Origin: Leisingera sp. NJS204
GTDB taxonomy: Bacteria > Pseudomonadota > Alphaproteobacteria > Rhodobacterales > Rhodobacteraceae
Direction: 5' to 3'
Assembly: GCF_004123675.1 (NCBI RefSeq)
Contig: NZ_CP035417.1
Coordinates: 3,029,501-3,093,500, forward strand
Length of the DNA: 64,000 nucleotides
The notes beneath the pieces were generated by a model that did no database searches, had not been told where the DNA came from, and saw only the letters and a list, made by a program, of their open reading frames with translations. Positions 4,013 through 38,202 of this stretch are shown one piece after another (position 1 is the first letter of the stretch; every line of letters starts with the position of its first letter). The translations under genes were made by a program, and so were the position numbers.

Positions 4013-4030
4013 TTAATCTGCCAGTATAAG

Positions 4031-14011: not shown

Positions 14012-14105
14012 GCTGTTTACCTCTTCTTGCAAATCCGCGGGACAGGGACGTCCGCAACCGGTAAACTTTGACGCAAATCCGGGGAATTGAGGGGGCACGA
14101 AGGCT

Positions 14106-15660: not shown

Positions 15661-15829
15661 GGTTTGCAGCACAGATGGGGATCTGGTGCTGCCAGACCGG
15701 GACAACCCGCCGGGGAGAACTCCGGCACCAAAAACCAACCCGTCCGGCGGGCGCCTGCCAGCTCTGCAAAGCAGTCTGGCACCGTTGTGCCGGACTGTTT
15801 TTAAGGGGCCAGTGGGTCAGGTATTGGCG
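15661..15829 (+). promoter_or_regulatory. PKS leader with alternative RNA pairings (attenuator candidate)
   Basis: A terminator hairpin (15773-15796) can be disrupted by two upstream segments: TGCCAGAC at 15690-15697 is complementary to its left arm (15774-15781), and TCCGGCAC at 15721-15728 is complementary to its right arm (15787-15794). A further pair, CCCGCCGG (15706-15713) and CCGGCGGG (15744-15751), could join an upstream fold. A short frame opens at ATG 15675 with consecutive Trp-Cys-Cys codons, but it lacks a good ribosome site. The pairings are read directly from sequence; the regulatory role is inferred. Confidence 0.4.
15773..15802 (+). terminator. intrinsic terminator 27 nt before the PKS start codon
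   Basis: AGTCTGGCAC (15773-15782) pairs with GTGCCGGACT (15787-15796) with one G-T wobble around a CGTT loop, followed by GTTTTT. The T-run ends only 27 nt before the ATG, too close for a separate promoter plus ribosome site. PKS transcription must therefore pass through this hairpin. Confidence 0.6.
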
Positions 15830-18800
15830 ATGCAGGATGGGAAACCCGCAGCGGGGGGCGCTGCCGGAGATATAGCAATTGTCGGGTTGTCAGTGACAGT
15901 CCCCGGCGCAACTTCTGCTGACGCCTTCTGGCAGAACCTGCGCGACGGCATTGAATCGATTGAGGTTCTGGACCGCGACACCCTGCTGGCGGCTGGTGAA
16001 CGGGCGTCTGTGCTGGCCGACCCGGACTATGTGCCTGCCGCAGCCCGGCTGCAGGGGTTTGATGAATTCGATGCCGAGTTCTTTGGCTTCAGCCCCAAGG
16101 AAGCCGCCATCCTCGACCCCCAGCACCGCAAATTCCTGGAAGTGGCCTGGGGAGCCATGGAGAACGCGGGCCACCCGCCCGAAAGCATCGCTGGCCCCAT
16201 CGGCGTTTATGCAGGCTGCGGCATGGGCAGCTATTTCTATTTCAACATCTGCTCGAATCCGGCCCTTGTGGACGATGTCGGCATGTTCCTGCTGCGCCAT
16301 ACCGGCAACGACAAGGACTTCCTGTCGACCCGCGTCAGCCATGTGTTCGACCTGCACGGGCCCTCGGTCAACGTGCAGACCGCCTGCTCCACCTCGCTGG
16401 TTGCGGTGCATTACGCCTGCAAGGCCCTGCGCGAAGGCGAGTGCGATATGGCACTGGCCGGCGGTGTCACCATCGAGCTGCCGCAGAGCCGCGGCTACCT
16501 CTACAAGGAAAACGAAATCCTCAGCCCGGACGGCCACTGCCACGCCTTTGATCACCGGGCGCAAGGAACGGTTTTCGGCTCCGGCGCAGGCGCGGTGGCG
16601 CTGAGGCGGCTGGAGGATGCGATTGCCGATGGCGACCACATCTGGGCCGTCATCAAAGGCTCCGCCATCAATAACGACGGTGCGGACAAGGCCGGGTATC
16701 TGGCGCCCTCGGTTGGCGGCCAATCGGCAGCGGTGCAGGCTGCGCTGCAGGCCGCAGGCACCCCGGCAGAGACCATTGATTACGTCGAATGCCATGGCAC
16801 CGGCACCTATCTGGGCGACCCGATCGAGGTCACAGCCCTGACCGACGCCTACCGCGCCACCACCCAGGACAACGGTTTTTGCCGCATCGGCTCGGTCAAG
16901 ACCAACATCGGCCATCTGGACACCGCCGCCGGTGTCGCCAGCCTGACCAAAACCGCGCTGGCGCTGCATCATCAGGAAATACCGCCCTCGCTAGGGTTTG
17001 AGGCGCCGAACCCCGCAATAGATTTCGAGACGTCACCCTTCAAAGTCAACGCCGCCCTCACGCCATGGGAACCGCACAAGGGACCGCGCCGCGCCGGCAT
17101 CAACTCACTGGGCGTCGGCGGCACCAATGCCCATGTGATCCTCGAGGAAGCGCCAGAGCGTGCAGCCTCGGAAGAAAGCGATTTTCCGTTCCAGATCCTC
17201 TGTGTTTCCGGCCAATCCAAGGCCGCGCTGGATGCCAACACGCAGTCCCTTGCAGAGTACCTGAAGGCAAACCCGGATGCCGATCTGGCCGACGTGGCCT
17301 ATACGCTGAAGGAAGGCCGCCGCGGCTTTGCCAAACGCCGCGTGCTGGTGGCGGAAACCACCGCTGAAGCGATTGATATTCTGACAGAAAACGACCCGCG
17401 CAAGGTCTTTACTCATGACCGTCTCGGCGACACCCCCGAGGTGGTCTTCCTGTTTCCCGGCGGCGGCGCGCAATATGCCGGCATGGCCCGCGATCTGTAC
17501 GAGACTGAACCGGTCTTTGCCGATTGGATGGACCGCGGGCTGGACCACCTGCAACAGGGCCTGGATTACGACATCCGCGCCATCTGGCTGCCCGAAGCGG
17601 GCGAAGAGGACGCGGCAAACGCCAGGCTGCAACAGCCCTCGGTGCAGCTGCCGCTGGTCATGATCGTGGAATACGCGCTGGCGCAGCTGTGGATCAGCTG
17701 GGGCGTCAAACCCGCGGCACTTGCGGGCCATTCTATGGGCGAAAACACCGCCGCCTGCCTGGCCGGCGTTATACGTTTCGAGGACTGCATTGATCTGGTC
17801 CTGTTGCGCGGACGGCTGTTTGATACCGTTCCCGCAGGCGGCATGCTGTCCATTGCCCTGCCGCTGGCCGAAGTTGAGGCGATCATCGGCGATGATCTGG
17901 ACATTGCCAGCGTCAACGCGCCCGCGCTGACGGCCGTTTCCGGCCCGCAAGAGGCGCTGGACCGGTTGTCCGCCGACCTGACCGCCCGCGAGGTGGAGCA
18001 CCAGCGCATCCAGATCGACATTGCCGCCCATTCGCGGATGCTGGACGGCATCCTGCAGCAGTATGGCGATTTCATCCGCTCGCTGACCCTGTCAGCGCCG
18101 AACCTGCCGGTGATCTCCAACCGCACCGGCGCCGCCCTGACCGCCGAACAGGCCACCAGCGCCGATTACTGGGTCGGCCAGTTGCGCAACACCGTGCGCT
18201 ATGCCGATTGCATTGAAACCCTCGCCAAGACCCCGAACCGTGTGTTCCTTGAGACCGGCCCCGGCAAGGCCCTCAGCGCGCTGGCGCAAATGTCGCCCGT
18301 GGTGCAACCGGGCCAGGTGCTCAGCTCGTTGCGCCACCCGGATCAGGACGTGATGGATGACAGTTACTTCTTCGGCGTCATCGGCCGGCTTTGGGCTTGC
18401 GGGGTCGAGGCCGACTGGCAGCAGATTTGGGGCGAAGCGCGGCGCAACCGCCTGCCCCTGCCCGGTTACGCCTTTCAGCGCAGCCGCTATTTCATCGAAC
18501 CCGGCAAACCTGCCGTGGAAGAAGACACGCCCCCCGCCCGGCGCGAAGACCTGGCCGATTGGGGCTACCGCCCTGCCTGGCGGCCCAGGTTCGCCGATTG
18601 CACCCTGGACGTGGAACATGAACTGGACCAGGCACCGCAAACCTGGCTGATTTTCGAGGATGAAACAGGCCACGCGGCCCGCGCCGCAGACCAGCTGCAG
18701 GCCGCTGGCCACAGCGTCACCCGCGTCCGCGCCGGCGACACTTATGCGCAGCTGTCCCCGGTCTCATACATCCTGCCGCCGGAACAGGGCCGCGCCGCCT

Positions 18801-21800
18801 ATGGCGCATTGCTGGCAGACTTGGCAGGCGCCGGGCTGCTGCCGGACCGCATCGCCCATTTCTGGCTGGTGACCGGGGAAGAAACCTATCGCCCCGGCTC
18901 TTCCTTCTTTGACCGCAATCTGGAGATGGGCTTTCACTCCCTCACCGCATTGGCGCAGGAACTGGGCAATGCCGGTCTGCCCGGCCCGCTGCATATCAGC
19001 GTCTTCACCACTGGCGCAGCACAGGTCCGCAGCGAAGCACTGCCCTATCCCGAAAAAACGATGATCGCGGGGCCGCTGGGGGTGATCCCGCGTGAGCTGC
19101 CCGGCATCACCTGCGCCGCCATCGACATCGAACTGCCAAAGCCGCCCAAGGCGCTGTTTACGCGCCGCAAACCGGTACAAGCAGACATTACCCCGCGCCT
19201 GCTGGAAGAGCTGATGGCGGATCCCGCAAACACCTCTGCCGCCTGGCGCGGTGAAAAGCGGCTAGAACTCACGTGGCGCCCGCTGCCGCTGCCCGCGCCG
19301 GAAACGCCGCCCTTTAAACAGGGCGGCCACTATCTGGTAACCGGCGGCTATGGGGGTATCGGCCTGACCGTCGCGGGCCATCTGATGCGCGAATACGGCG
19401 CCAAAATCTCACTGATCTCCCGCGAAGGACTGCCCCCGCGCGCCGCCTGGGAGCGCTACTTGCGCAGCCACAGCCCGGCCAACCGCACCGCTTTGCGCAT
19501 CCGCGCGGTAATGGCGCTTGAGGAGACCGGCAAAGGCCGGATCCTGCCGCTGGCCGCCGACGTCTGCAACAGCGGCGAGCTGCGCCGCACCCGCGCGCAA
19601 GGCGAAGCCGCCTTTGGTCCCGTCACCGGCGTGATCCACGGCGCCGGTATCATCGATGACGGCCCGCTGCTGGCCAAAGACGAGAACCGGATCGCCCAGG
19701 TGCTGGCGCCCAAGGTCAGCGGGCTGCGGGCGCTTGATGCGGTCTTCCCCGATGGCAGCCTGGAGCTGATGGTGCTGTTTTCCTCCTCCTCCGCCGTGAC
19801 CCGGCCTGCGGGCCAAGTGGATTACATTGCCGCCAATGAATTCCTCAACGCCTGGGCCAAGCACCGCACCGGCGGCCTCACCCGTGTGATGGCAGTGGAT
19901 TGGGGTGTCTGGTCCGATACCGGCATGGCCGCCGACGCCATGGCCAGCCGCAACGGCGCCACCGCCGCCGGCACGATGGCCCCCTGTCCCCAGCCGCTGT
20001 TACAGCAATGCGGCTATGACACGGCCGGCAACCGCATCTTCACACCGCGTTTTGAAACCGCGGATTGGCTTCTGGACGAACACCGGACCGCCGATGGAAC
20101 CGCCCTGGTGCCCGGCACCGGCTACATCGAAATGGCGGCAGAGGCGCTGGCAGAAACCGGTTTTGAAGGGCCAATCGAAATCCGCGACCTCTACTTCATG
20201 CGCCCTCTGGTTGCAAAAAGTGAAGCCCCGGAAAAGCTTGCGGTAAAACTCGAAGCTAATGAAAATGGTTATGAACTGTTTGTTTACTCGGCATGTACAA
20301 ATGGTTACTCTCTAAATTGTCAGGCTATGCTGGCCTCAGCGGCGGCGGCAGAATGCCCCGCCGCACTCAACCTCCAGAAGATTTTCACCCGTTGCCCGGA
20401 GGAGCAGGCGCCAATTAACGGGCGCTTGCGCTCCGCGCAGGAGGCGCATCTGCGCTTTGGTCCGCGCTGGCATGTGCTAAGGCGCGCGGCACTGGGCAAT
20501 GGCGAGGGCCTCGCCACTCTCTCACTCCCGGACATCGCGGCGCAGGACGGCTGTCTGCTGCATCCCGGCCTGCTGGACCTGGCCACCGGCTGGGCGATTG
20601 GCCTGATCCCCGGATACGACGCCAGCGCGCTTTGGGTGCCGGTGTCCTACCACCTGATCCGGGTTTTCGCACCGCTCACCTCCAGCATCTGCAGCCATGT
20701 GCGGCTGACGGATGCGCCGGATGGCCGCTCTGCCGGTTTTGACGTCACCCTGACAGATCCGCACGGCACTGTTCTGGTCCGGATCGAAGGTTTCCGGATG
20801 CAGCGCCTGACCGGCGGATTCGACGCCGCAGCAGCCGAAGGGCAAGCCGACGCCACCGCCGCTGAGCTGGGCCTGGAACCTGCCGCCGGCACGCAGCCTC
20901 TGTCTCCCGAGGAACGGCGCCTGCAGCTGAACATCTCCAACGGCATCAAAGCCGCTGAAGGCGGCGAGGCGCTGGCCCGCGCCCTTGCCACCGGTCTGCC
21001 GCAGGTGGTGGTCTCCTCGCTGGACCTGCCCGCTTTGATCGCACAGGCAGGGCAGACTGCCGCCGCGGAGGACACCCAGACGTTCGAGCGCCCGCAACTG
21101 GATACTGACTACGTCGCCCCCCGCAACCCGGTAGAGGAGGAACTGGCCGGCCTCTTTGCCGCCCTCGTTGGGGTGTCGCAAGTGGGGATCGAGGACAGTT
21201 TCTTTGACCTTGGCGGCCACTCGCTGATTGCGGTGCGGCTGTTTGCCCAGGTCAAACGCGGCTTTGGTGTGGAATTCCCCCTGTCGGTGCTGTTTGAGGC
21301 CCCCAGCGTCGCCGCGCTGGCAGAACGGATCATAGACCGCACCGGCGGCGGTATCGCTGCGGAACCAGGGAAACCCGCCGCAGCTGCAGAAAACACACCA
21401 TCCTTCACCCATCTGGTGCCGCTGCATCCGGGCGACGGCACCGGACGGCGGCCCTTCTTTCTGGTGGCAGGCATGTTCGGCAATGTGCTGAATCTGCGCC
21501 AACTGGCCTTGCTCGTGGGTAAGGACCGCCCGGTCTATGGCCTGCAGGCCAAGGGGCTGGTCGGCAATGACGCCCCGCACTCCCGGATCGAGGACGCAGC
21601 CCGAAGCTGCCTGGACGAGATCCGCCGGATCCAGCCCGAGGGTCCCTATCTTCTGGGCGGCTTTTCCGGCGGCGGCATCACCGCCTATGAGATGGCGCAG
21701 CAGCTGAAGGATCAGGCCCAGGAAACCGCCGCGCTGATCCTGCTGGACACGCCTTTGCCCATGCGCCCGCCGCTCAGCCGCCGCGACAAGGCACTGATCA

Positions 21801-22255
21801 AACTGGCAGAACTGCGCAGCAAAGGGGCCGGCTACTTTGGCGAATGGGCCAGAAACCGCATCGCCTGGGAGATTGAAAAACGCCGCGCCGCTCCGGTTGA
21901 GACCGGCGCCCTGCCCGAATTCAACAACCGCAAGATTGAGCTGGCCTTCCGCACCGCCGTTGAAACTTACGCCCTGCGCCCCTGGACCGGCCCCCTCACG
22001 CTGTTCCGCCCGCCGCTGGACCGCAATTGGCAGGTCAGCGGCGGCAACTGGGTCAGCACTGCCCGCGAATATGTGTTTGATGACAACAACTGGACCCGCT
22101 GGGCCGCACAGACCGAGGTGGCCGAAGTGCCGGGCGACCACGACAGCATGGTGCTGGTGCCGAATGTCAGCGTGCTGGCCGCCGGTGTCAAAGCCCGGCT
22201 CGACGCCGCCGATATGGCGGCTGGCCGGCCCCGCTATGCCACGGCCGCGGAGTGA
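15830..22255 (+). CDS. type I polyketide synthase, KS-AT-KR-DH-ACP-TE
   Basis: A 2141-residue single-module synthase. The ketosynthase (about 12-440) has Cys186 in TACSTS, His322 in CHGTGT and His362 in TNIGH. The acyltransferase (about 530-850) has Ser635 in GHSMGE, which suggests malonyl-CoA. The ketoreductase (structural part from about 905; TGGYGGIG near 1170, YIAANEF near 1332) precedes a dehydratase-like double hot-dog (about 1405-1665; DEHRTADGTALVP, LHPGLLDLA). The carrier protein has Ser1798 in GGHSL. The C-terminal thioesterase (about 1875-2130) has Ser1946 in GGFSGGG and His2104 in PGDHD. The KR-before-DH order is unusual, and the DH His motif is one residue longer than HxxxGxxxxP. 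ATG 15830 is chosen just before the KS. It overlaps the next gene's region. Confidence 0.88.
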   Translation: MQDGKPAAGGAAGDIAIVGLSVTVPGATSADAFWQNLRDGIESIEVLDRDTLLAAGERASVLADPDYVPAAARLQGFDEFDAEFFGFSPKEAAILDPQHRKFLEVAWGAMENAGHPPESIAGPIGVYAGCGMGSYFYFNICSNPALVDDVGMFLLRHTGNDKDFLSTRVSHVFDLHGPSVNVQTACSTSLVAVHYACKALREGECDMALAGGVTIELPQSRGYLYKENEILSPDGHCHAFDHRAQGTVFGSGAGAVALRRLEDAIADGDHIWAVIKGSAINNDGADKAGYLAPSVGGQSAAVQAALQAAGTPAETIDYVECHGTGTYLGDPIEVTALTDAYRATTQDNGFCRIGSVKTNIGHLDTAAGVASLTKTALALHHQEIPPSLGFEAPNPAIDFETSPFKVNAALTPWEPHKGPRRAGINSLGVGGTNAHVILEEAPERAASEESDFPFQILCVSGQSKAALDANTQSLAEYLKANPDADLADVAYTLKEGRRGFAKRRVLVAETTAEAIDILTENDPRKVFTHDRLGDTPEVVFLFPGGGAQYAGMARDLYETEPVFADWMDRGLDHLQQGLDYDIRAIWLPEAGEEDAANARLQQPSVQLPLVMIVEYALAQLWISWGVKPAALAGHSMGENTAACLAGVIRFEDCIDLVLLRGRLFDTVPAGGMLSIALPLAEVEAIIGDDLDIASVNAPALTAVSGPQEALDRLSADLTAREVEHQRIQIDIAAHSRMLDGILQQYGDFIRSLTLSAPNLPVISNRTGAALTAEQATSADYWVGQLRNTVRYADCIETLAKTPNRVFLETGPGKALSALAQMSPVVQPGQVLSSLRHPDQDVMDDSYFFGVIGRLWACGVEADWQQIWGEARRNRLPLPGYAFQRSRYFIEPGKPAVEEDTPPARREDLADWGYRPAWRPRFADCTLDVEHELDQAPQTWLIFEDETGHAARAADQLQAAGHSVTRVRAGDTYAQLSPVSYILPPEQGRAAYGALLADLAGAGLLPDRIAHFWLVTGEETYRPGSSFFDRNLEMGFHSLTALAQELGNAGLPGPLHISVFTTGAAQVRSEALPYPEKTMIAGPLGVIPRELPGITCAAIDIELPKPPKALFTRRKPVQADITPRLLEELMADPANTSAAWRGEKRLELTWRPLPLPAPETPPFKQGGHYLVTGGYGGIGLTVAGHLMREYGAKISLISREGLPPRAAWERYLRSHSPANRTALRIRAVMALEETGKGRILPLAADVCNSGELRRTRAQGEAAFGPVTGVIHGAGIIDDGPLLAKDENRIAQVLAPKVSGLRALDAVFPDGSLELMVLFSSSSAVTRPAGQVDYIAANEFLNAWAKHRTGGLTRVMAVDWGVWSDTGMAADAMASRNGATAAGTMAPCPQPLLQQCGYDTAGNRIFTPRFETADWLLDEHRTADGTALVPGTGYIEMAAEALAETGFEGPIEIRDLYFMRPLVAKSEAPEKLAVKLEANENGYELFVYSACTNGYSLNCQAMLASAAAAECPAALNLQKIFTRCPEEQAPINGRLRSAQEAHLRFGPRWHVLRRAALGNGEGLATLSLPDIAAQDGCLLHPGLLDLATGWAIGLIPGYDASALWVPVSYHLIRVFAPLTSSICSHVRLTDAPDGRSAGFDVTLTDPHGTVLVRIEGFRMQRLTGGFDAAAAEGQADATAAELGLEPAAGTQPLSPEERRLQLNISNGIKAAEGGEALARALATGLPQVVVSSLDLPALIAQAGQTAAAEDTQTFERPQLDTDYVAPRNPVEEELAGLFAALVGVSQVGIEDSFFDLGGHSLIAVRLFAQVKRGFGVEFPLSVLFEAPSVAALAERIIDRTGGGIAAEPGKPAAAAENTPSFTHLVPLHPGDGTGRRPFFLVAGMFGNVLNLRQLALLVGKDRPVYGLQAKGLVGNDAPHSRIEDAARSCLDEIRRIQPEGPYLLGGFSGGGITAYEMAQQLKDQAQETAALILLDTPLPMRPPLSRRDKALIKLAELRSKGAGYFGEWARNRIAWEIEKRRAAPVETGALPEFNNRKIELAFRTAVETYALRPWTGPLTLFRPPLDRNWQVSGGNWVSTAREYVFDDNNWTRWAAQTEVAEVPGDHDSMVLVPNVSVLAAGVKARLDAADMAAGRPRYATAAE

Positions 22256-22260
22256 TGCCG

Positions 22261-23277
22261 ATGAACCCGCAGCGCATCCTTACCATCCTCCTCAACTACC
22301 GCACGCCGGAGATGACCCTGCAGGCCGCCGAGGCCGCCCTGCGCGAAATGGAGGACCTGCCGGGCGAACTGCTGATCATCGACAATGGATCCGGCGACGG
22401 CTCCTATGATCAGATCCGCGCCGAAGCAGACAAACGCGGCTGGCTCGGCAGCGGGCGGTTGCGGGTGATCGCCTCGCCTGTGAACGGCGGCTTTGGCGCG
22501 GGCATGAACTTGGGGCTGAAAACCGGCCTGTCGGGCGGCAGCGCGCCGGAATTCTACTACTTGCTGAACTCCGACGCCTTTGTGCAGGGCAGCACCATCG
22601 GCACCCTGCGCGACTTCCTGCTGGAACGTCCCGGCGCCGGGCTGGCCGGCTCTTTTGTGCGCGGCACCGACGGCGCGCCGCACCGCACCGCCTTCCGCTA
22701 TCCCTCAATCGCGGGTGAGTTCGAGGCCAGCGTGCGCACCGGCATTTTCACCCGCCTGCTGAAACCCTGGGTGGTCGCCATGGACATGCCGCAGGACGAG
22801 CTGCAGGTTGACTGGACCGCCGGCGCCAGCCTGATGATCCGCCGCGAAGTCATCGAGGCCGTTGGCGGCTTTGACGAGACCTTCTTTCTGTATTTTGAGG
22901 AAACCGACCTCTGCCGCCGTGCCGCCCGTGCGGGCTGGCGCACCCACTATGTGCCAACGAGCGAAATCGCCCACGTGGGGTCGGCGTCCACCGGGATGAA
23001 AGCCTGGCAGCGCACGCCGCAATACTGGTTCAACTCGCGGCGGCATTACTTCGTCAAGCACCACGGGCACGCCTATGCCGCCGCCGCAACGCTGGCGCGG
23101 ATCACTGGCAGCCTGATCTATGGGCTGCGCCGCCTGATCTCGGATAAACCACAGGCGGATCCGCCGCATTTCCTGCGCGATCTGGTCCTGTACAGCCTGC
23201 GTGCGGTATTTGCGCCGCAGCCAAAAACATCACCAAAAACGCGCGCGCCCTCTCCGATTGCAAAGGAGCAGAAATGA
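22261..23277 (+). CDS. glycosyltransferase family 2, rhamnosyltransferase-like
   Basis: A 338-residue GT2 enzyme. TILLNYRTPEMT and LIIDNGSGDGS form the N-terminal donor site, YYLLNSDAFV replaces a classical DxD, and the segment FDETFFLYFEETDLCRRAARAGW is typical of WcaE/RfbN-like rhamnosyltransferases. HVGSASTG is the usual following motif. The ATG at 22261 follows GGAG by 8 nt; an ATG at 22255 overlapping the PKS stop is the alternative. Its position between PKS and NRPS genes, with a 4-bp overlap to the latter, suggests it glycosylates the cluster's product. Confidence 0.8.
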   Translation: MNPQRILTILLNYRTPEMTLQAAEAALREMEDLPGELLIIDNGSGDGSYDQIRAEADKRGWLGSGRLRVIASPVNGGFGAGMNLGLKTGLSGGSAPEFYYLLNSDAFVQGSTIGTLRDFLLERPGAGLAGSFVRGTDGAPHRTAFRYPSIAGEFEASVRTGIFTRLLKPWVVAMDMPQDELQVDWTAGASLMIRREVIEAVGGFDETFFLYFEETDLCRRAARAGWRTHYVPTSEIAHVGSASTGMKAWQRTPQYWFNSRRHYFVKHHGHAYAAAATLARITGSLIYGLRRLISDKPQADPPHFLRDLVLYSLRAVFAPQPKTSPKTRAPSPIAKEQK

Positions 23278-26200
23278 CGTTCTTCACATGTGCCCTGATT
23301 GGCAATGAATCCCTTCTGATCGGCTGTGCCGAGGCGCTGCTGGCACGCGGCCACCAGATCCGGGCCGTGGTGTCGCAAGACCCCGATATCCGCAGCTGGG
23401 CCGATGGCAAGGGCCTGCCCCTGCTGGACACCCAGCAGCAGCTGCAAGGCGGCTTCGACTGGCTGCTGTCAATCGCCAACCTGACAGTGATCCCTGATGA
23501 GGTTCTGGCACTGGCCGCCAAAGGCGCGGTGAACTTCCACGACGGTCCCCTGCCCCATTACGCGGGCCTCAACACCCCGAATTGGGCGCTGATCAATGGC
23601 GAAACACAGCATGGCATCACCTGGCACCTGATGACCAGCGGCGTCGATGAGGGCGACATCCTGGCCCGGCGGCTGTTCGATGTAGCGGCGGATGAAACTG
23701 CGTTCAGCCTGAACTCCAAATGCTACGCCGCCGCGATGGACAGCTTTGACGAGGTGATGGCGCAGCTGGAAACCGGCGAGTTGAACCGCCAGCCGCAGGA
23801 CCTGAGCCAGCGCCGCGTGTTTGCCAGATCCGACCGCCCCGCCGCAGGGGGACTGCTGGACGTCTCCCGCCCCGCCGCCGAACTGGCGCGGCTGGTCCGT
23901 GCCTTGGACACCGGCGGATACTGGAACCCGCTGTGCGCCGCCAAATTGCGGATTGGCGGGCAGGTCGCTCTCACTGGGGCCGCGGAAACAGCAGAAGGCT
24001 CCGGCGCCCCCGGCACAGTGCTTGACGTCCGCAAAGACAGCGTGACAATCGCCACCGCGGACGGCGCGCTGATGCTGTCGCGGCTGACCACGCCGGCAGG
24101 CAAACCGCTGGACGTATCCGGGCTGGTCAAAGCCGGCGATTTGCTGCCGGCGCTGACCGCGGAAGACGCCGGGTCCCTCACTGCACAGATGGCCGCCGTG
24201 CAGGGTGGCGAAAGCCACTGGCGCAAGGCGCTTGCCGCGATGCAGCCGGTCCAGGTACCGCTTGCAACAGATACCGGCAGCGCAGGGGTAACCCGCCGGA
24301 AGATCGCCATGCCTGCCGCCCTCAGCGAAGAACAGGCCGCCGCCGGGGTGCTGGCCTGGGCCTTGCTCAGCAGCGGCGAGAAATCCGCTGATGTGGCGCT
24401 GTCCATCGCCGGTATGAACGCGGTTCCTGGGCTGATCTCCGATTGGGTTCCGCTGCAGGCGCGGCGGGAACAAACCGTGTCCGATCTCAAAGCGAAAGCA
24501 ATTCAGGGCATTGAAAAAGCGCGTAAATACGGCGGATTTGCCGAGGATTTGGCCGCGCGGGCACCCGAGATTCCGGCGTTCTCTCAACCAGCCATAGGCC
24601 TGTCTCTGGACAGGGACGGCCCGGTTTCAGGCTGCGCCGCCACCGTCGCTTTCTGCGATGGCGCACTGGCGCTGCACACGGACGCCCAGCTGGACGAACA
24701 GGCCGCAGAATTGCTGGCCGCGCGGCTGGCTCTGGTGCTGGGCGCCCTGGCCGGTGATGCGGACCTAGCGGTCGCAGACCTCCCCATCCTGCCCGAAGCC
24801 GAGCGCAAGCTGCTGCTGGAGGATTGGAATCAGACCGCCGCGGACTATCCCGCAGATCTGACCATTCACGCCGCTTTCGAGGCCCAGGCCGCCAGCACCC
24901 CTGACGCCGCTGCACTGGTGTTCGAGGACCAGAGCTTCACCTATGCCCAGGTCAACGCCCTCGCCAATGCCGTGGCCCGGCGCCTGCGTGAAATGGGCGT
25001 GAAACCTGGAGTTCATGTAGGCATCCATATCCGCCGCGCACCCGAGCTGGTGTTTGCCGCCCTGGGCGTGATGAAGGCCGGCGGCGCCTATGTGCCGCTC
25101 GACCCGGCCTATCCTGCGGACCGGATTGCCCATTACATCAGCGACAGCCGGGCGCAGGTGATCGTGACACAATCCGCACTGGCCGGCGCCCTGCCCGCCT
25201 CCGGGGCACAGGTGCTGGAAATGGAAACCGTCCCCGCGGGGACAGCCAACGATAACATCAATGGCGGCGCCACGGGCAGCGATCCGGCCTATCTGATCTA
25301 CACCTCCGGCTCGACCGGTCTGCCCAAGGGGGTGATGGTCACCCACGCCAATGTCTCGAACGTCTTCACCGGCATGGATCAGCGCATCCCGCATCAGCCC
25401 GGCGATGCCTGGCTGGCGGTCACCAGCCTTAGCTTTGACATCTCGGTGCTGGAGCTGTTCTGGACCCTGTCGCGCGGGCTGAAGCTGGTCTTGTCCAGCG
25501 ATGAAAGCCGGCTGGAGCTGTCCAAGGGCCCGGTTGCGAAATCGGACCGCAGAATGGATTTCAACCTGTTCTACTGGGGCAATGACGATGGGCCGGGGCC
25601 GCAGAAATACCATCTGCTGCTGGAAGGCGCCAAGTTTGCCGATAGCCACGGTTTCAACGCGGTCTGGACGCCGGAACGGCATTTCCACGCTTTTGGCGGC
25701 CCCTATCCGAACCCGTCGGTTACCGGTGCTGCCGTTGCGGCGGTGACGCAGAACATCGGCGTGCGGGCCGGTTCTTGCGTGGCCCCCTTGCACCATTGTG
25801 CACGGATTGCCGAGGAATGGGCGGTGATCGACAACCTGACAGCAGGCCGCGCCGGGATCGGTTTTGCCTCAGGCTGGCAACCGGATGATTTCATCCTGCG
25901 GCCTGAAAATACGCCGCCTGCAAATAAACCTGCCTTGTTTGAGAGCATTGAAACCGTGCGCAAACTCTGGCGCGGCGAGGAGGTTGCCTTTGCCCGCAAA
26001 GACGGCAGCGATCACGCCGTTGTCACCCAGCCCCGTCCCGTCTCAGCCGAACTGCCGGTCTGGGTCACGACTGCTGGCAACCCGGAAACCTGGCGCGAGG
26101 CCGGGGCGATCGGGGCAAATGTGCTGACCCATCTCTTGGGCCAGAGCATCGACGAGGTCGCGGGCAAAATCCGTATATATCATGACGCTTTGCGCAAAGC

Positions 26201-27848
26201 CGGCCATGACCCTGCGGATTTCAAGGTTACCCTGATGCTGCACAGCTATCTGGCAGCAACCCGCGAGCAAGCCCGCCAAGTGGCGCGCGAGCCAATGAAG
26301 GACTACCTGCGCTCGGCCGCCGGGCTGATCAAGCAATATGCCTGGGCCTTCCCGGCGTTCAAGAAACCCGAAGGCGTAAAGAACCCGTTTGAGATGGATC
26401 TGGGATCGCTGTCTGAGGAGGAGCTGGAAGCGATACTCGACTTCGCCTTTGAACGGTATTTTGAGGACTCGGGCCTGTTCGGCACCATTCAGGATGCCTG
26501 CCAGCGGGTCGAGCAACTGAAACACATCGGTGTGGATGAGATCGCCTGCCTGATCGACTACGGCATCGCGCCGGACGTGGTGCTGGAGGGGCTGAAACCC
26601 TTGGCCGAAGTGCTGCGCCTGTCCAACGCCCCGCAAGAGCTGGCGGCGGATGACTTCTCTTTGGCTGCACAGATCGTGCGCCATGGGGTCAGCCACATGC
26701 AGTGCACCCCGTCGATGGCGCGGATGATTGCCGCGGATGAAGACGCCAGCGCCTGTTTGGCACAATTGCAGCATCTGCTGGTTGGGGGCGAGGCGCTGCC
26801 CGGAGATCTGGTGCAGGCGCTGCGCGAGGCTACCCCCGCCGGAATCCACAACATGTACGGCCCGACCGAGACGACGATCTGGTCGACAGTGGAGAAAGTC
26901 ACGGCTGTCCCGGCGGGGACAACAGGGATCGGCACGCCGATTGCCAACACGCAGGTTTACGTTCTGGACGAAAAACAGATGCCTGTCCCCGCGGGGACAG
27001 CCGGGGAATTGTATATCGGCGGCGCGGGTGTCACGGCGGGCTACTGGCAACGGCAAGAGCTGACTGCTGAACGGTTCGTAAACACAGCGTTCGCTGATAC
27101 CCCCCTTTACCGCACCGGGGATCTGGTGCGCTGGACAGCCGGCGGCACGCTGGCCTTTCTGGGCCGCACCGACCATCAGGTTAAGATCCGCGGCCAGCGG
27201 ATTGAGCTGGGCGAGATCGAAGCCGCGATGGCCGCCTTCCCCGGTGTGACGGGGGCTGTGGTTGTGCCGCGCGGCGAAAGCGGCGCCGGGCAATTGGTAG
27301 GTTATGTCACCACCGCTGCACCTGTTGACGAGAGCCTTGTGAAACAAGCCTTGGCGGCCAGACTGGCCGAGGCGATGGTGCCTGCACGGATCGTCACGCT
27401 GGAGGCCTTCCCGCTGACACCAAACAAGAAAATCGACCGCAAGGCACTGCCTGATCCGCAGCCGCCACGGGCCGAAGCCCCTGCGGCTGTTGCGCTGGAT
27501 GCAGGCGCGCAAGCCAGGATCGCAACCGTCTGGAGCCGCATTCTGGGAATCAGCGGCATCGGCGCACAGGACAATTTCTTTGCGCTTGGCGGCCATTCGC
27601 TGCTGGCGGTGCAGGCGCACCGGGAATTGCGCGACGAACTGGGCGAAGCACTGGGGACTGCCAGCCTGTCGATCACGGATATCTTCCGCTTCCCGACGCT
27701 GGCGGGGCTGGCAGCCCATATCGAAGGGCTTGCAGGCACACCTGCAAATGCGGAACAACAGCCGCAGGACAGCGAAGGGCCCGACCGCGCCGGCACCATG
27801 TCGAAACGGCGGGCCATGCGTGCAAACCGCAAAGCAAGGACCGGATGA
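23274..27848 (+). CDS. NRPS-like protein: formyltransferase - adenylation domain with embedded luciferase-like monooxygenase - thiolation
   Basis: 1524 residues. A formyltransferase domain (1-190, with C-terminal subdomain to about 285) keeps the catalytic triad Asn87, His89 and Asp125. Residues about 285-520 resemble the C-terminal half of a condensation domain without HHxxxD. The adenylation domain starts near 525 (YTSGSTGLPKG at 676-686) and is interrupted at about 761-1115 by an FMN-dependent luciferase-like monooxygenase of the MupA/Atu3671 type (MDFNLFYWGND, NAVWTPERHFHAFGG, GRAGIGFASGWQPDDF). It resumes with NMYGPTETT (1193), YRTGDLVRW (about 1278) and NKKIDRKALP with Lys1386. The thiolation Ser1442 is in GGHSL. 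It likely activates, N- or C-oxygenates and formylates an amino acid. No condensation or release domain is intact. Confidence 0.88.
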   Translation: MTFFTCALIGNESLLIGCAEALLARGHQIRAVVSQDPDIRSWADGKGLPLLDTQQQLQGGFDWLLSIANLTVIPDEVLALAAKGAVNFHDGPLPHYAGLNTPNWALINGETQHGITWHLMTSGVDEGDILARRLFDVAADETAFSLNSKCYAAAMDSFDEVMAQLETGELNRQPQDLSQRRVFARSDRPAAGGLLDVSRPAAELARLVRALDTGGYWNPLCAAKLRIGGQVALTGAAETAEGSGAPGTVLDVRKDSVTIATADGALMLSRLTTPAGKPLDVSGLVKAGDLLPALTAEDAGSLTAQMAAVQGGESHWRKALAAMQPVQVPLATDTGSAGVTRRKIAMPAALSEEQAAAGVLAWALLSSGEKSADVALSIAGMNAVPGLISDWVPLQARREQTVSDLKAKAIQGIEKARKYGGFAEDLAARAPEIPAFSQPAIGLSLDRDGPVSGCAATVAFCDGALALHTDAQLDEQAAELLAARLALVLGALAGDADLAVADLPILPEAERKLLLEDWNQTAADYPADLTIHAAFEAQAASTPDAAALVFEDQSFTYAQVNALANAVARRLREMGVKPGVHVGIHIRRAPELVFAALGVMKAGGAYVPLDPAYPADRIAHYISDSRAQVIVTQSALAGALPASGAQVLEMETVPAGTANDNINGGATGSDPAYLIYTSGSTGLPKGVMVTHANVSNVFTGMDQRIPHQPGDAWLAVTSLSFDISVLELFWTLSRGLKLVLSSDESRLELSKGPVAKSDRRMDFNLFYWGNDDGPGPQKYHLLLEGAKFADSHGFNAVWTPERHFHAFGGPYPNPSVTGAAVAAVTQNIGVRAGSCVAPLHHCARIAEEWAVIDNLTAGRAGIGFASGWQPDDFILRPENTPPANKPALFESIETVRKLWRGEEVAFARKDGSDHAVVTQPRPVSAELPVWVTTAGNPETWREAGAIGANVLTHLLGQSIDEVAGKIRIYHDALRKAGHDPADFKVTLMLHSYLAATREQARQVAREPMKDYLRSAAGLIKQYAWAFPAFKKPEGVKNPFEMDLGSLSEEELEAILDFAFERYFEDSGLFGTIQDACQRVEQLKHIGVDEIACLIDYGIAPDVVLEGLKPLAEVLRLSNAPQELAADDFSLAAQIVRHGVSHMQCTPSMARMIAADEDASACLAQLQHLLVGGEALPGDLVQALREATPAGIHNMYGPTETTIWSTVEKVTAVPAGTTGIGTPIANTQVYVLDEKQMPVPAGTAGELYIGGAGVTAGYWQRQELTAERFVNTAFADTPLYRTGDLVRWTAGGTLAFLGRTDHQVKIRGQRIELGEIEAAMAAFPGVTGAVVVPRGESGAGQLVGYVTTAAPVDESLVKQALAARLAEAMVPARIVTLEAFPLTPNKKIDRKALPDPQPPRAEAPAAVALDAGAQARIATVWSRILGISGIGAQDNFFALGGHSLLAVQAHRELRDELGEALGTASLSITDIFRFPTLAGLAAHIEGLAGTPANAEQQPQDSEGPDRAGTMSKRRAMRANRKARTG

Positions 27849-28534
27849 CAGAGGCCGAAAACAAACTGGCAAAGCGGCTGGCACTGGTCCGGCCGCTTTT
27901 TGCCGCCGATGTGGCGCTGGCCGGGGCAGATCCGCTGGGCGCCCCGTCCGCACCGCTGGCAGAGGAAGCCGCGGGGCTGTCGCCGAACGCGGTGATCAAA
28001 CGGCGCACCGAATTTGCCGCTGGACGCAGTGCCGCGCATCAGGCGATGCGGCAGCTTGGGCTGACTCCTGCACCTGTGCCCGTGGGCCGCGACCGGGCGC
28101 CGGTCTGGCCCAAGGGGCTGGTCGGCTCGATCACCCATACCAAAAGCTGCGCCATGGCCGTGCTGGCCCATGAGGGCGACGTTCAGGGTCTGGGGATCGA
28201 CGTGGAAGAGGACACGCCGCTGAAGGACGAACTGCTGCCTGCAATCTGCTCGGAGCGGGAACAGGCCTGGCTGAAACGGCAGGACAACCCCGGACAGATG
28301 GCCAAGGTGATCTTTTCCGCCAAGGAAGCGGCCTACAAATGCCAATACACGCTGAGCCGGGCTTTTTATGGCTTTGACGGGATGGAGCTGGAGTTTGATC
28401 TGGCGGCAGCTGCGTACCGGGCCGTGTTTACCGCTGACAGGCCGCCTTTTGTGCGCGGAGAAGCTGTCAGCGGGCGCTTTGCTATTGGTGCCGGCCTGAT
28501 CATCACCACGGCGGAAATCCGGGGGCGCGGATGA
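27845..28534 (+). CDS. 4'-phosphopantetheinyl transferase (Sfp/EntD family)
   Basis: A 229-residue enzyme that transfers phosphopantetheine from CoA to carrier-protein serines. The conserved blocks are GSITHTKSCAMAVLA, GLGIDVEE (metal-binding Asp and Glu) and FSAKEAAYKCQY. Length and motifs match the EntD-like branch. It overlaps the NRPS-like gene by 4 bp, so it almost certainly primes Ser1442 there and Ser1798 of the polyketide synthase. Confidence 0.92.
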   Translation: MTEAENKLAKRLALVRPLFAADVALAGADPLGAPSAPLAEEAAGLSPNAVIKRRTEFAAGRSAAHQAMRQLGLTPAPVPVGRDRAPVWPKGLVGSITHTKSCAMAVLAHEGDVQGLGIDVEEDTPLKDELLPAICSEREQAWLKRQDNPGQMAKVIFSAKEAAYKCQYTLSRAFYGFDGMELEFDLAAAAYRAVFTADRPPFVRGEAVSGRFAIGAGLIITTAEIRGRG

Positions 28535-29469
28535 TGGGGCGGCGCGGATTTCTGGTTTTTGGCGCGCTGAGTGCGGCGCTGGGGCTGATGGGGTTTGCAA
28601 CACGCAGCCGCGGCGTGCCGGTTCCACCGCCGCTGGCGCCGTCTGAGGCACCCTTGAAGGTTTTCCATCTGGGTCATTCGCTGGTCGGGTCTGACATGCC
28701 GCATATGCTGGCGCAGCTGGCGCCTGCGGGGCATGGGTTCAACAGCCAGCTGGGCTCGGGCACATCGCTGCGGGCGCATTGGGAGCCGGGGGAAGATATC
28801 CTCGATTTTGAGACCGCCAATCAGCCGCCCGCTTACCGGGACGCGCGGGAGGCCGTCAAATCCGGTGAATACGGTGCCTTGGTGCTGACCGAGATGGTCG
28901 AACTGCGCGACGCCCTCCGCTATTTCAGCGCCGCCGAATACCTGACGAATTGGGCAGGGCTTGTGCGGCAGGCCTCGCCTGGCACACGTATGTATCTCTA
29001 TGAGACCTGGCACAGGCTGGACGACCCGGACGGCTGGCTGGAACGGATCGACGGCGATCTTGAGGCGCTGTGGGTGGGCAAACTGCTGGGTCCGGACAGC
29101 CGCAGCAACCCGCAGCACCCGGTCTATCTGATCCCCGGCGGGCAGGTACTGGCGGCACTGGCGCGGGCGGCGGAGGCCAGAGGGATCCCTGGCCTGGCTT
29201 CACGTGAATCGCTGTTTGCCCGCACGCCCGCGGGGGAATTGGACACGATACATGTCAATGATCTGGGCGCCTATGCGGTTGCGCTGACCCACTATGCGGT
29301 GCTGTACCAGCGCTCGCCCCTGGGGCTGCCGCATCAGCTGACCCGCGCCGATGGCAGCCCGGCGCAGGCGTTTTCAGCTGAGGCCGCCGCCAAAGTGCAG
29401 CAGATTGTCTGGGACGTGGTGCGCGCCCTGCCCCGTACAGGTATCGCCACCGGGGGAGCACCGTCATGA
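28531..29469 (+). CDS. SGNH-hydrolase-like exported protein (Tat-type signal)
   Basis: 312 residues. The N-terminus MMGRRGFLVFGALSAALGL has a twin-arginine-like RRGF ahead of a hydrophobic core, so export in folded form is likely. The mature domain has GHSLVGSDMPHM (block-I Ser), YLYETWHRLD and DTIHVND (DxxH), the points expected of an SGNH esterase/acyltransferase fold. It is a paralogue of the N-terminal domain of the next gene: both share GHSL, ETWHxLD, GQxxAxL and GLPHQL in the same order. It overlaps both neighbours by 4 bp. A role in acylating or deacylating the glycan or natural product is inferred. Confidence 0.6.
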   Translation: MMGRRGFLVFGALSAALGLMGFATRSRGVPVPPPLAPSEAPLKVFHLGHSLVGSDMPHMLAQLAPAGHGFNSQLGSGTSLRAHWEPGEDILDFETANQPPAYRDAREAVKSGEYGALVLTEMVELRDALRYFSAAEYLTNWAGLVRQASPGTRMYLYETWHRLDDPDGWLERIDGDLEALWVGKLLGPDSRSNPQHPVYLIPGGQVLAALARAAEARGIPGLASRESLFARTPAGELDTIHVNDLGAYAVALTHYAVLYQRSPLGLPHQLTRADGSPAQAFSAEAAAKVQQIVWDVVRALPRTGIATGGAPS

Positions 29470-31991
29470 AGCTGGAGGCGCTGATTACCTCCGTGGTCAT
29501 GATCGGCCATTCGCTGTTCGGGCCGGACAACCCGCAGATGCTGGACCAGCTTTTGAATGCGCGCGGGCAGGCCACGGTCGAGGCGCAGATCATCAATGGC
29601 GCGCCGCTGAGCTATAACTGGCAGCACAGCAGCACCGCCGAAGGTTTTGATTCACGTGAAAGGCTGCGCCGCCCGGCGGAGGCGGTGATTGTGACCGAAG
29701 CCATTCCGCTGGCCAATCACTTGAAGTGGAGCGATACCGAAGGCGCTGTCACCCAATTCTACCAGCTGGCGCGGGCCGCGAACCCGGATGTGGACTTTTA
29801 CCTGCAGGAAACCTGGCACAGTCTGGACAGCGGCACCGGCGCCGAGGTGCCCTTTGACAAGGGTGCCGATATTCCCTGGCGCGAGAGGATCAGCCAGGAC
29901 CTGCCGCGCTGGCAAGCGGTAGTAGATGAGGTCAACACAGCCACCAGCGGCACCGTGAAACTGCTGCCTGCGGGGCAGGCCATGGCGCGGCTGGAGGATG
30001 CAATCCTGGCCGGCACCATGCCCGGCCTCAGCAGCATCCGCGATGTGTTTGCCGATGACATCCATCCCAATGCCACTGGTTTCTATTTCCTGGCGCTGCT
30101 GCAATTTGCGGTGCTGACCGGGCAGGACCCGGCTGGCCTGCCGCATCAGCTGAGCGACCGCTGGGGCAAGCCCTATTCCGCGCCGCCGCCGGACCTGGCG
30201 GCACGGCTGCAGGACATTGCCTGGGCTGCGGCTCAAGGAACCGATGTGCGCACCGCCGCTTTGCCGCCGGATCCTGCCGCGCTGCCGCGGGAGCCTGCCC
30301 TGCCTGCGCTCAACTCGGTGATGGCCGCTGACAGGGCTGACAGTTCCGCACCGATGGCCAGCCCCAACCGGCAACCCGTCGCCATCAACCTGGCAGCCAT
30401 TGCCGACTGGAGCACCCAGGCGCCGTTTCTGGACCATTTTAAAACTGCGCGCCCCTGGATCGGGCATCTGCCGAAACGCTGGGGCGGTGCGGACCACCAG
30501 GATCTGCTGGCCGCCGGGTATCTGGACCCGGAGGGCTGGCCCACTGCTATCCCGCCTGAGCTGACATCAATCGGCACGGTGATCCTGACCGACCTGCCAG
30601 AGGAGGCCGGTTCGCTTGCGGGCCGCTATGTGCTGCGGTTCGACGGTCAGGGCATTGTCGAGGTTGCCGGCCGTGCTGAGAATGTGCGCTACGGCAAGGG
30701 CGAAGTGCGGTTTGACTATGCCCCCGGCCCCGGTCCGGTGGAAATCCGCATCCAGCGGACAGGACGGCGCGGCGGCAGCGGCGATGACTATGTGCGCAAC
30801 ATCCGGGTGGTGAAGGAAGAGCACCTGGAGGCCTATGAGCAAGGCGCGCTGTTCAACCCGCTGTGGCTGGACCGGCTGGACGGGTTTGCCGCGCTACGGT
30901 TCATGGATTGGATGGCCGCCAATGATTCAGAGCAAACCGGCTGGGAGGACCGGCCGCGGGTTCCTGAATACACTTGGGCGCTGAAGGGCGTTCCGGCCGA
31001 GATCATGCTGGCGCTGGCCAACACGCTGGGGGCCGATCCCTGGTTCACCATGCCGCATATGGCGGATGACACTTATGTCCGGCAGTTTGCACGGACAGCA
31101 GAGCGCGGCTTGGATGAGGATCTGCGCGCCTATGTGGAGTATTCCAACGAGGTCTGGAACTGGCAGTTCCAGCAGGCGGCCTGGGCTGATGCGCAGGCGC
31201 AGGCACGCTGGGGCGGCGATGGGTTGTGGATGCAGTTCTACGGCGGCCGTGCCGCCGAGATTGCGCAGATCTGGACGCAGATTTTCGGTGCTGACAGCAA
31301 GCGTCTGGTGCGGGTGATCTCCTCGCAGACCGGCTGGCTGGGATTGGAAGAGCAGGTTCTGACGGCGCCGCTGTGGAAGGCGGAACAGGCGGGGCGCCAA
31401 GCGCCTGCTGCCTATTTCGATGCCTATGCGGTAACGGGGTACTTCGGCGGCATCCTTGGCATCCCGGAACGCGCCGGGCACGTCCGCGCCTGGATCGCCG
31501 ACAGCCGGGAGCAGGCCCGGGCGGTGGCGGAGGAACGCGGGCTGTCTGGCCCGGCGGCAAGCGCATTTGCAAAGGAACATCAATATGATGCAGCCTCTGC
31601 CCAGGCCGGAGCGGAGTTGCGCGACGGGCTGATCTCGGGGGACGGCACCGATACATTGACCGATTTGCTGGGGCGTGTGCTGCCCTATCATGCCCAGGTT
31701 GCGCAGAAACACGGGCTGGAGCTGATCATGTATGAGGGCGGCAGCCATGTGGTCGGTATCGGCCCATTGGTGGAGGATGAGACACTGACCGGGTTCTTCA
31801 CCCATTTCAACTATACGCCCGAGATGGGCAGGCTGTACCAGGAACTTCTGACAGGCTGGAGCACACTTGGCGGGGGCATGTTCACCGCCTATGCCGATGT
31901 TGGCGTGCCTGGAAAGTGGGGGAGCTGGGGCGCCTTGCGGGTGCTGAGCGACGAAAACCCGCGCTGGAACGCGTTGGAGGCCGTGAAGTGA
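29466..31991 (+). CDS. two-domain protein: SGNH-like domain plus glycoside-hydrolase-like domain
   Basis: 841 residues. The N-terminal domain (1-260) repeats the SGNH-like pattern of the upstream protein (MIGHSLFG, YLQETWHSLD, DDIHPNATGF). A Pro/Ala-rich linker (about 260-300) leads to a C-terminal region (about 300-841): a beta-rich part, then a TIM-barrel-like glycosidase with YSNEVWNW (acid/base candidate Glu562) and MYEGGSHVVG (nucleophile candidate Glu757). No signal peptide is obvious, unlike its upstream paralogue. It may trim or modify the polysaccharide or a glycosylated metabolite. Functional names are inferred from motifs only. Confidence 0.6.
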   Translation: MKLEALITSVVMIGHSLFGPDNPQMLDQLLNARGQATVEAQIINGAPLSYNWQHSSTAEGFDSRERLRRPAEAVIVTEAIPLANHLKWSDTEGAVTQFYQLARAANPDVDFYLQETWHSLDSGTGAEVPFDKGADIPWRERISQDLPRWQAVVDEVNTATSGTVKLLPAGQAMARLEDAILAGTMPGLSSIRDVFADDIHPNATGFYFLALLQFAVLTGQDPAGLPHQLSDRWGKPYSAPPPDLAARLQDIAWAAAQGTDVRTAALPPDPAALPREPALPALNSVMAADRADSSAPMASPNRQPVAINLAAIADWSTQAPFLDHFKTARPWIGHLPKRWGGADHQDLLAAGYLDPEGWPTAIPPELTSIGTVILTDLPEEAGSLAGRYVLRFDGQGIVEVAGRAENVRYGKGEVRFDYAPGPGPVEIRIQRTGRRGGSGDDYVRNIRVVKEEHLEAYEQGALFNPLWLDRLDGFAALRFMDWMAANDSEQTGWEDRPRVPEYTWALKGVPAEIMLALANTLGADPWFTMPHMADDTYVRQFARTAERGLDEDLRAYVEYSNEVWNWQFQQAAWADAQAQARWGGDGLWMQFYGGRAAEIAQIWTQIFGADSKRLVRVISSQTGWLGLEEQVLTAPLWKAEQAGRQAPAAYFDAYAVTGYFGGILGIPERAGHVRAWIADSREQARAVAEERGLSGPAASAFAKEHQYDAASAQAGAELRDGLISGDGTDTLTDLLGRVLPYHAQVAQKHGLELIMYEGGSHVVGIGPLVEDETLTGFFTHFNYTPEMGRLYQELLTGWSTLGGGMFTAYADVGVPGKWGSWGALRVLSDENPRWNALEAVK

Positions 31992-34207: not shown

Positions 34208-34442
34208 CGCGGCTTGTTCCGTGCAAATCTTGGGTCTGCGGCAGGTTAACGGCGGTTGAGCAGCTTGCCCAGCGTCCTGTTGCGCTTGTCGCACAGATGT
34301 GGAGAATGGGCTGCGGGGGCCATGATTGTTAAAGTATTTCCACCCCTGTATCCCGCATTCCTGTTGCAAGCGGCCCTGTGATTGACGCCCCCTGCCCTGC
34401 CGCCTAGCCTGCGGAACCGGACGTTTGGGGATTGGCGCGGAC

Positions 34443-38052: not shown

Positions 38053-38202
38053 GCCGTTTTGTTCTCCCTCCTGCGGGCTGCCTGCCGGACTGGCAGCACA
38101 TGCCCCTGATCGTGCAAAATGCTTCACAACCGCGTTCCCCGCAATGGCTGACCGGGCTGCAGCGGGCACTCGGACTGAGGCCTGCAGCGGACCAGACAAT
38201 AA

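Follow-up and report, generated by a model that had tools for sequence, protein, structure and literature searches.

Introduction

A passage in PMC5014874, citing Martens et al. 2007, describes a cluster of polyketide synthase (PKS), glycosyl transferase, non-ribosomal peptide synthetase (NRPS) and phosphopantetheinyl transferase (PPTase) genes that is conserved amongst roseobacters and whose product had not been identified as of 2016. In Phaeobacter inhibens, the PKS (Inhi_1972) and the NRPS (Inhi_1974) are two tags apart, according to the relevant part of PMC4062626. We analyzed a stretch of 64,000 nucleotides from Leisingera sp. NJS204 (contig NZ_CP035417.1, positions 3,029,501 to 3,093,500; hereafter, the window), and in particular its NRPS gene (23274-27848, plus strand), a single open reading frame (ORF) encoding 1524 residues. 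The window matches this already known orphan cluster by gene content (the same four genes in the same order) rather than by sequence, and the descriptions of the cluster in those passages mention no formyltransferase, monooxygenase, glycine or polysaccharide locus (PMC5014874, PMC4062626). What our analysis would add is the polysaccharide setting and a predicted chemistry, namely an N-formylglycyl unit, alpha-hydroxylation and one reducing two-carbon extension. We give about even odds (roughly 0.5) to the reading in which the NRPS and PKS work as a two-protein assembly line whose product is a small acyl group destined for an exopolysaccharide. This reading starts from what is seen directly in the sequence or in a structural model (the domains present, active sites that are intact, the overlaps between genes and the polysaccharide locus around them), and from these we infer the product and its role in the polysaccharide.

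In the myxothiazol and melithiazol pathways, glycine-recruiting adenylation (A) domains contain a monooxygenase (MOx) that hydroxylates C-alpha, so that glyoxylate stays bound to the carrier; these pathways and the crz-like clusters, as described in part of PMC11342130, share with the window the placement of a MOx in a glycine-loading A domain. Those modules receive an upstream peptide, whereas the window encodes an initiation module with a formyltransferase (FT) and a condensation (C) domain reduced to its C-terminal lobe. An upstream condensation domain that delivers a peptide is lacking in the window protein, which was thus not classed with the myxothiazol/melithiazol type. We take the MOx of these pathways to belong to the luciferase-like monooxygenase (LLM) family. 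A formyltransferase and a predicted glycine A domain that hand over to a PKS are found, as in the window, in CongA (conglobatin) and OzmO (oxazolomycin); the portion of PMC4504003 that deals with them mentions neither an embedded LLM nor a polysaccharide locus and proposes that the partner CongE or OzmP forms an oxazole. The window protein has the same formyltransferase-A(Gly)-carrier order with the catalytic Asn-His-Asp (N-H-D) residues, its A domain being interrupted by the LLM. The A domains of CongA and OzmO are presumably uninterrupted. LgrA, the F-A-T protein of linear gramicidin, likewise carries a formyltransferase before the A domain, although this is a weak match to that of the window (best E 4.2e-6, as compared with 2e-24 for Fmt and 6e-23 for ArnA), and LgrA, we assume, has neither an LLM nor a C lobe between F and A. 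The monooxygenase of PuwE (6ket) belongs to the same LLM family as that of the window (345 bits) but stands between PKS and NRPS modules rather than inside an A domain, and a passage of PMC4219810 proposes that it takes part in making a 3-amino-2-hydroxy acyl chain. For palmerolide, an LLM put in TIGR subfamily 04020 has been proposed to perform alpha-hydroxylation, in a section of PMC8739492 that also names further PKS LLMs, assigned to hydroxylation or Baeyer-Villiger oxidation. In those parts of the open-licence literature that our searches reached, no description was found of a formyltransferase and an embedded LLM in one module, nor any account of the roseobacter PKS/NRPS cluster within a polysaccharide locus, which is weak evidence of novelty.

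Domain architecture of the NRPS protein

From its N-terminus, the protein consists of a formyltransferase domain (residues 1-290, 23274-24143), the C-terminal lobe of a C domain (residues 300-520, 24171-24833), the N-terminal part of an A domain with motifs A1-A4 (residues 525-745, 24846-25508), the embedded LLM (residues 763-1113, 25560-26612), the C-terminal part of the A domain with motifs A5-A10 and Lys1386 (residues 1120-1395, 26631-27458) and a carrier protein (T; residues 1415-1483, Ser1442, 27516-27722), all on the plus strand. This anatomy, FT-(C-terminal lobe)-A[LLM]-T, draws on Pfam, NCBIfam, AlphaFold, Foldseek and profile searches and is, in our opinion, nearly certain. Pfam placed Formyl_trans_N at residues 70-152, Formyl_trans_C at 193-284, AMP-binding in two stretches (best 535-747) with Bac_luciferase at 773-1088 between them, AMP-binding_C at 1314-1386 and PP-binding at 1415-1483. 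The NCBIfam model of the MupA/Atu3671 family LLMs, TIGR04020, matched residues 763-1113 with 471.3 bits, the curated cut-off being 244.45. The first-pass annotation of this DNA had placed a monooxygenase at about residues 761-1115, between an A4-like motif and A5 of an otherwise intact A domain, and had named Asn87, His89, Asp125 and Lys1386 as retained; the insert, the complete remainder of the A domain and all four residues are where it put them. The C lobe, in contrast, had been overlooked. A profile of residues ~300-520 built from 36 members matched McyB residues 259-471 (E 1.9e-14), as well as Txo1, Txo2 and PvdL. This match covers the C-terminal lobe only, the catalytic N-lobe and its HHxxxDG motif being absent from the protein, and when single C-lobe sequences were compared with the Pfam Condensation model, only one of the 36 members reached it.

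Residues 300-1400 were modeled with AlphaFold from an alignment of 40 rows, including the window, with a mean predicted local distance difference test score (pLDDT) of 85.7 and a predicted template-modelling score (pTM) of 0.67. The top Foldseek matches in the PDB were proteins with adjoining C and A domains, such as Txo2 (6p1j, E 1e-58, 1156 columns), while the free A domain of GrsA/PheA (1amu) aligned over 893-902 columns with a target TM-score of 0.68-0.73. The LLM part resembled the PuwE monooxygenase 6ket (target TM-score 0.90-0.91, root mean square deviation 2.8-3.2). In the model, both AMP-binding halves thus form one contiguous A domain into which the LLM is inserted, since 1amu aligns across the long insert and the C-A proteins align with the model as well. 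Structure prediction had been suggested earlier as a check, and it speaks for contiguity.

Predicted glycine specificity and conservation

The ten-letter specificity code of the A domain is DILQLGMIWK, and the glycine-like pattern DILQxGM(I/V)WK is present in 49/49 aligned rows, that is, the window, 40 loci of its family (Rhodobacteraceae) and eight plasmid loci. We take DILQLGLIWK to be a glycine code. For the stretch with positions 278-331, the best PDB match, when the query was rerun at a looser limit, was DhbF (5u89), which has Gln278, Gly301, Ile330 and Trp331 in common with the window protein and which, we assume, activates glycine. Outside the family, a full glycine-like code was read in 75 of 79 A[LLM] modules, a count that leaves out L156 and the first LLM of L148, which have no A domain close by. 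Three codes are incomplete but agree as far as they can be read (two run into contig ends and the ORF of L107 breaks off), and one, in L144, is degenerate. The A domain is therefore predicted from its code to load glycine. The earlier proposal that a carrier-bound amino acid would be both oxygenated and N-formylated on this protein remains the natural reading, with glycine now as the predicted substrate.

The LLM is the most conserved domain, with a mean majority frequency of 0.82 and 102/351 invariant positions. The A halves and the carrier reach 0.70-0.73, and the formyltransferase 0.61, with 17/290 positions invariant. These figures refer to 47 rows, leaving out L037 (a split gene) and L039 (Nostoc), both of which lack an aligned formyltransferase and were also dropped from some profiles. 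It should be noted that the presence of an LLM in the aligned rows proves nothing in itself, as the rows were chosen by their LLM. Likewise, the LLM residues that are invariant in 12 diverse members are found in the window by definition, and the blocks in which they lie are largely common to PuwE. The catalytic N-H-D of the formyltransferase is kept in 46 of the 49 rows. In the NRPS of L044 (family genome G126; 8209-12876, minus strand), the Asn is retained while the His is replaced by Phe and the Asp by Ser, with A[LLM] kept; a C-A-T-thioesterase NRPS (3834-7964) and glycosyltransferases lie beside it. Such a natural variant could reveal the purpose of formylation.

The operon

The NRPS gene is one of six consecutive plus-strand genes that overlap by four bases at 5/5 junctions. 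First comes the type I PKS (15686-22255, 2189 residues), assigned by Pfam the order ketosynthase (KS), acyltransferase (AT), ketoreductase (KR), dehydratase (DH), acyl carrier protein and thioesterase (TE). It is followed by a family 2 glycosyltransferase (GT2; 22252-23277), the NRPS, a 4'-phosphopantetheinyl transferase (27845-28534), both from Pfam, and two genes for SGNH-like proteins. In the PKS, 13 catalytic positions and two AT positions that flank the catalytic His are identical in 45/45 rows; this count leaves out L037, L038, L039 and L041, and the TE residues differ in L037, L039 and L041.

The first SGNH-like protein, termed hyp312 (28531-29469), has an N-terminal hydrophobic helix and a model with pLDDT 91.0 that shows the SGNH fold. 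Its best PDB match is 4i8i (DUF4886, E 1.4e-6), followed by a GDSL lipase and then, at weaker E-values, by carbohydrate esterases, and its GHSL and IH motifs are invariant in 15 rows. From its model and PDB matches, it is a candidate carbohydrate acyl esterase or acyltransferase. The second, of 841 residues (29466-31991), has an SGNH-like N-terminus (Lipase_GDSL_2, E 0.002, below cut-off) and a C-terminal part of ~560 residues without significant Pfam match; it is present within 20 kb in 11 of the 40 family loci.

The polysaccharide locus and its distribution in the family

The operon lies amid genes of a polysaccharide locus. To its left are a GT2 gene (12082-13032, plus), a WecG/TagA/CpsF glycosyltransferase (13160-14113, minus) and a Wzy-like polymerase or O-antigen ligase family protein (14106-15569, plus; Wzy_C). 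To its right are another GT2 (31916-32824, plus), a group 1 glycosyltransferase (GT4; 33002-34444, minus), a Wzx-like flippase (Polysacc_synt_3; 34425-35813, plus), a Wzz-like chain-length protein recognized by sequence features (35816-37066, minus), a BY-kinase-like protein of the CpsD type (37198-38199, minus), whose relative in L033 is annotated as CpsD/CapB family, and an initiating sugar-phosphate transferase (Bac_transf; 38203-39078, minus). The set expected of a Wzx/Wzy locus (initiating transferase, flippase, polymerase, chain-length protein, kinase and glycosyltransferases) is thus complete in the window, with the Wzy, Wzz and kinase calls lying below Pfam cut-offs and the others made by Pfam. 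As AraC regulator, sugar kinase and ABC-transporter genes follow on the right and TamA/TamB-like and glucokinase genes on the left, the locus would extend over ~12.1-39.1 kb. It includes the PKS, in agreement with the earlier description of a PKS linked to exopolysaccharide genes.

TIGR04020 was found above cut-off in 142/394 sampled genomes of the family and in 8/150 genomes of the phylum, six of these eight coming from the window's own family, its own genome included. From the 142 genomes, we chose 40 loci for long contigs, spread down the ranking, and the sample is therefore non-random. The PKS adjoins the NRPS in 40/40, the GT2 gene is present in 38/40 and the PPTase in 33/40, the order PKS-GT2-NRPS-PPTase being kept in 33/40. 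At least two of nine polysaccharide gene types of the window occur within 20 kb in 26/40 loci. When one or both flanks were added for the remaining 14, 12 had 6-9 types and two (G144, G217) had none, so that Wzx/Wzy-type polysaccharide genes are found at 38/40 loci in total. Arbitrary stretches, placed at round coordinates in 20 of the 40 inspected genomes, contained such types in 0/20, bearing in mind that the extended test covered 40-60 kb and these stretches 20 kb. GT2 is missing from L041 (G144) and L052 (G217), the same two loci that have none of the nine types in 60 kb; L052 retains an SGNH gene nearby. A nine-locus clade of the family had seemed free of polysaccharide genes because the 20-kb stretch cut the locus, and this was rejected, as the fetched flanks of 9/9 contain them. 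On a plasmid of Paracoccus marcusii (L036), a second NRPS (C-A-T-TE, 674-4552) lies in the polysaccharide locus of the FT-A[LLM] cassette, and assembly-line genes may be commoner in polysaccharide loci than thought.

Relatives outside the family

The named relatives outside the family are the 80 that scored best against a Deinococcus LLM among at least 588 found, and counts among them should therefore not be read as frequencies. A formyltransferase is present in at least 52 of these 80, a lower bound, as several contigs end before a formyltransferase or PKS could be seen. The 52 belong to ten phyla, namely Pseudomonadota, Myxococcota, Chloroflexota, Planctomycetota, Gemmatimonadota, Cyanobacteriota, Nitrospinota, Rhodothermota, Acidobacteriota and Omnitrophota. 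A KS-AT-KR-DH PKS was found in the locus for 32/52 relatives with a formyltransferase (28/35 of those with full 21-kb loci) and for 3/28 of those without one. Together, the formyltransferase and A[LLM] are shown to be a recurring glycine-initiation module across phyla. According to the first-pass annotation, a few clusters were known to have embedded monooxygenases of this type, and their combination with the other domains and the PKS appeared unusual. Neither view stands, given the share of family genomes above the cut-off, the PKS beside the NRPS at every inspected family locus and the formyltransferase in most of these relatives, and rarity of the architecture was rejected.

Polysaccharide genes are distributed unevenly among these relatives. 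A GT2 homologue is present in 9/52 formyltransferase loci, and 9/9 of these have at least one polysaccharide-type gene, as compared with 14/43 of the loci without GT2. For the more specific polysaccharide types, the numbers are 8/9 and 7/43. The other 29 of the 43 GT2-less loci have none of the nine types, and Pfam searches of 22 flanking ORFs at five FT-A[LLM] loci outside the window's clade (Myxococcus L088, Ramlibacter L085, Chloroflexi L108, Rhizobium L122 and Planctomycetota L131) yielded no polysaccharide family. The FT-A[LLM] protein can thus function without a polysaccharide; a universal link was rejected on these grounds, and the absence from the five loci indicates that the link is limited to a clade. 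Methylobacterium L101, where a sugar epimerase and an FkbM methyltransferase adjoin, is ambiguous. For L073, the ORFs given to Pfam were chosen by a third-position GC criterion.

Proposed pathway and alternative explanations

In the proposed pathway, the A domain would load glycine on the carrier protein, and the formyltransferase would cap its amine with formyl-tetrahydrofolate as donor. The embedded flavin mononucleotide-dependent enzyme would then hydroxylate the alpha carbon of N-formylglycyl-S-carrier, a reaction proposed because several LLM relatives have been reported or proposed to oxidize carbons alpha to a carrier thioester. The formyl group may here replace the peptide that the LLM would meet in an elongation module. 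In relatives with a full C domain, the LLM would be offered peptidyl-glycine, while the window protein has the C-terminal lobe only, with the formyltransferase in front. The N-formyl-alpha-hydroxyglycyl unit, or glyoxylyl after loss of formamide, would be handed to the PKS, which would add one malonyl unit followed by reduction and dehydration, and the TE would release or transfer the resulting C4 acyl group. This group would be either an N-formyl hemiaminal or a glyoxylyl-derived 4-oxobut-2-enoyl. The GT2 could put the modified sugar into a lipid-linked repeat that Wzx would flip and Wzy polymerize, and the SGNH proteins could, in the periplasm, take acyl groups off or transfer them. It is possible, and we put it forward tentatively, that a Wzx/Wzy exopolysaccharide of marine Alphaproteobacteria, and of some sphingomonads, Burkholderiales and Porticoccus, is decorated with an NRPS-PKS acyl group made from oxidized N-formylglycine and one malonate, as an N-formyl hemiaminal or, once formamide is lost, as a reactive 4-oxobut-2-enoyl (aldehyde) group.

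If so, the orphan roseobacter cluster would serve to tailor a polymer and not to make a secondary metabolite, assembly-line enzymes would be linked to surface polysaccharides, biofilm and algal association, and the 4-oxobut-2-enoyl aldehyde could cross-link the matrix. In marine bacteria, what has passed for an unexplained 'secondary metabolite' cluster may instead serve to decorate the slime coat. With the cluster amid polysaccharide genes at nearly all inspected family loci, its product should be sought on the exopolysaccharide as well as in culture extracts. The predicted glycine-formyl-hydroxyl chemistry gives exact masses for such a search.

Several points weigh against the proposed assembly line and should be considered. 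For attachment of the acyl group to a sugar, no enzyme was identified beyond the TE and the GT2, which are candidates only. Formylation, hydroxylation and extension could follow another order than the one proposed, and more than one round of extension by the PKS is conceivable. One family member, L044, carries a formyltransferase without the catalytic His and Asp. The family loci are related and their counts therefore not independent, the controls were shorter than the extended test, and both the 29 GT2-less loci and the 22 flanking ORFs described above show the module apart from polysaccharide genes.

The result for the 22 flanking ORFs would also suit a free secreted metabolite (a signal, an antibiotic or a metal binder, such as a hydroxamate if the LLM hydroxylates nitrogen), with the polysaccharide setting owed to co-inheritance or to glycosylation of the product. 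A terminal TE is able to act by hydrolysis alone, and the roseobacter literature, in the passage in question, files the PKS, glycosyl transferase, NRPS and PPTase cluster under secondary metabolism (PMC5014874). We nonetheless consider this explanation unlikely, as the Wzx/Wzy-type surroundings at the family loci contrast with the arbitrary stretches and the GT2 and polysaccharide genes co-occur. Moreover, no TonB receptor was found among those window ORFs that were given to Pfam, and the sole ABC transporter seen there lies beyond the locus, at 46.9-51.8 kb, and includes a solute-binding protein.

It is rather improbable that the PKS works iteratively on a formylglycyl starter, its product being a longer unsaturated chain with which the polysaccharide is anchored, primed or lipidated. 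From general knowledge of iterative PKSs, a KS-AT-KR-DH module without enoylreductase can work repeatedly, and the PKS does adjoin sugar-transferase genes. Yet Bac_transf and a Wzx-like flippase are present, proteins that, again from general knowledge, normally use undecaprenyl phosphate, and the ORFs searched included no acyltransferase that could serve such an anchor. That the LLM is idle or acts on the PKS product, the module merely loading N-formylglycine in the manner proposed for the FT-A(Gly)-T starters CongA and OzmO in a portion of PMC4504003 that mentions no monooxygenase, is very improbable, as the LLM is the most conserved domain of the protein.

Evolution of the module and minor observations

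A quick tree of 97 LLM rows places the window in a 20-row clade, all of the FT type (SH-aLRT 99), with Alphaproteobacteria, Porticoccus, another gammaproteobacterium, Gemmatimonadota and Myxococcota or other deltaproteobacterial rows. Modules with a full HHxxxDG domain before the A domain are found mostly in other parts of the tree. The FT label is strongly clustered (10 changes, as compared with a shuffled mean of 25.9). A single clean origin of the FT form was rejected, as these 10 changes are needed and starred branches force at least six; five suffice if only FT and full-C rows are counted. The FT-(C-terminal lobe)-A[LLM] arrangement looks like a C-A[LLM] elongation module in which the catalytic C lobe was lost or replaced.

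In L144 and L156 (Myxococcus, Pyxidicoccus), proteins that contain KS-AT carry an LLM beside A-domain remnants with weak A scores, possibly a step from an embedded to a free-standing monooxygenase. In three Anabaena loci (L127, L115, L152), FT-A[LLM] lies near a sugar transferase in 3/3 and near GT4 glycosyltransferases in 2/3, and no KS-AT-KR-DH PKS was seen in the fetched stretches (21, 13 and 17 kb); this is perhaps a PKS-free version of the system in cyanobacteria. The genome of the window holds a second TIGR04020 match in a 373-residue frame (G000:C2:145700-146665) that, with 119.9 bits, lies below the family cut-off and is probably an ordinary stand-alone luciferase-like enzyme.

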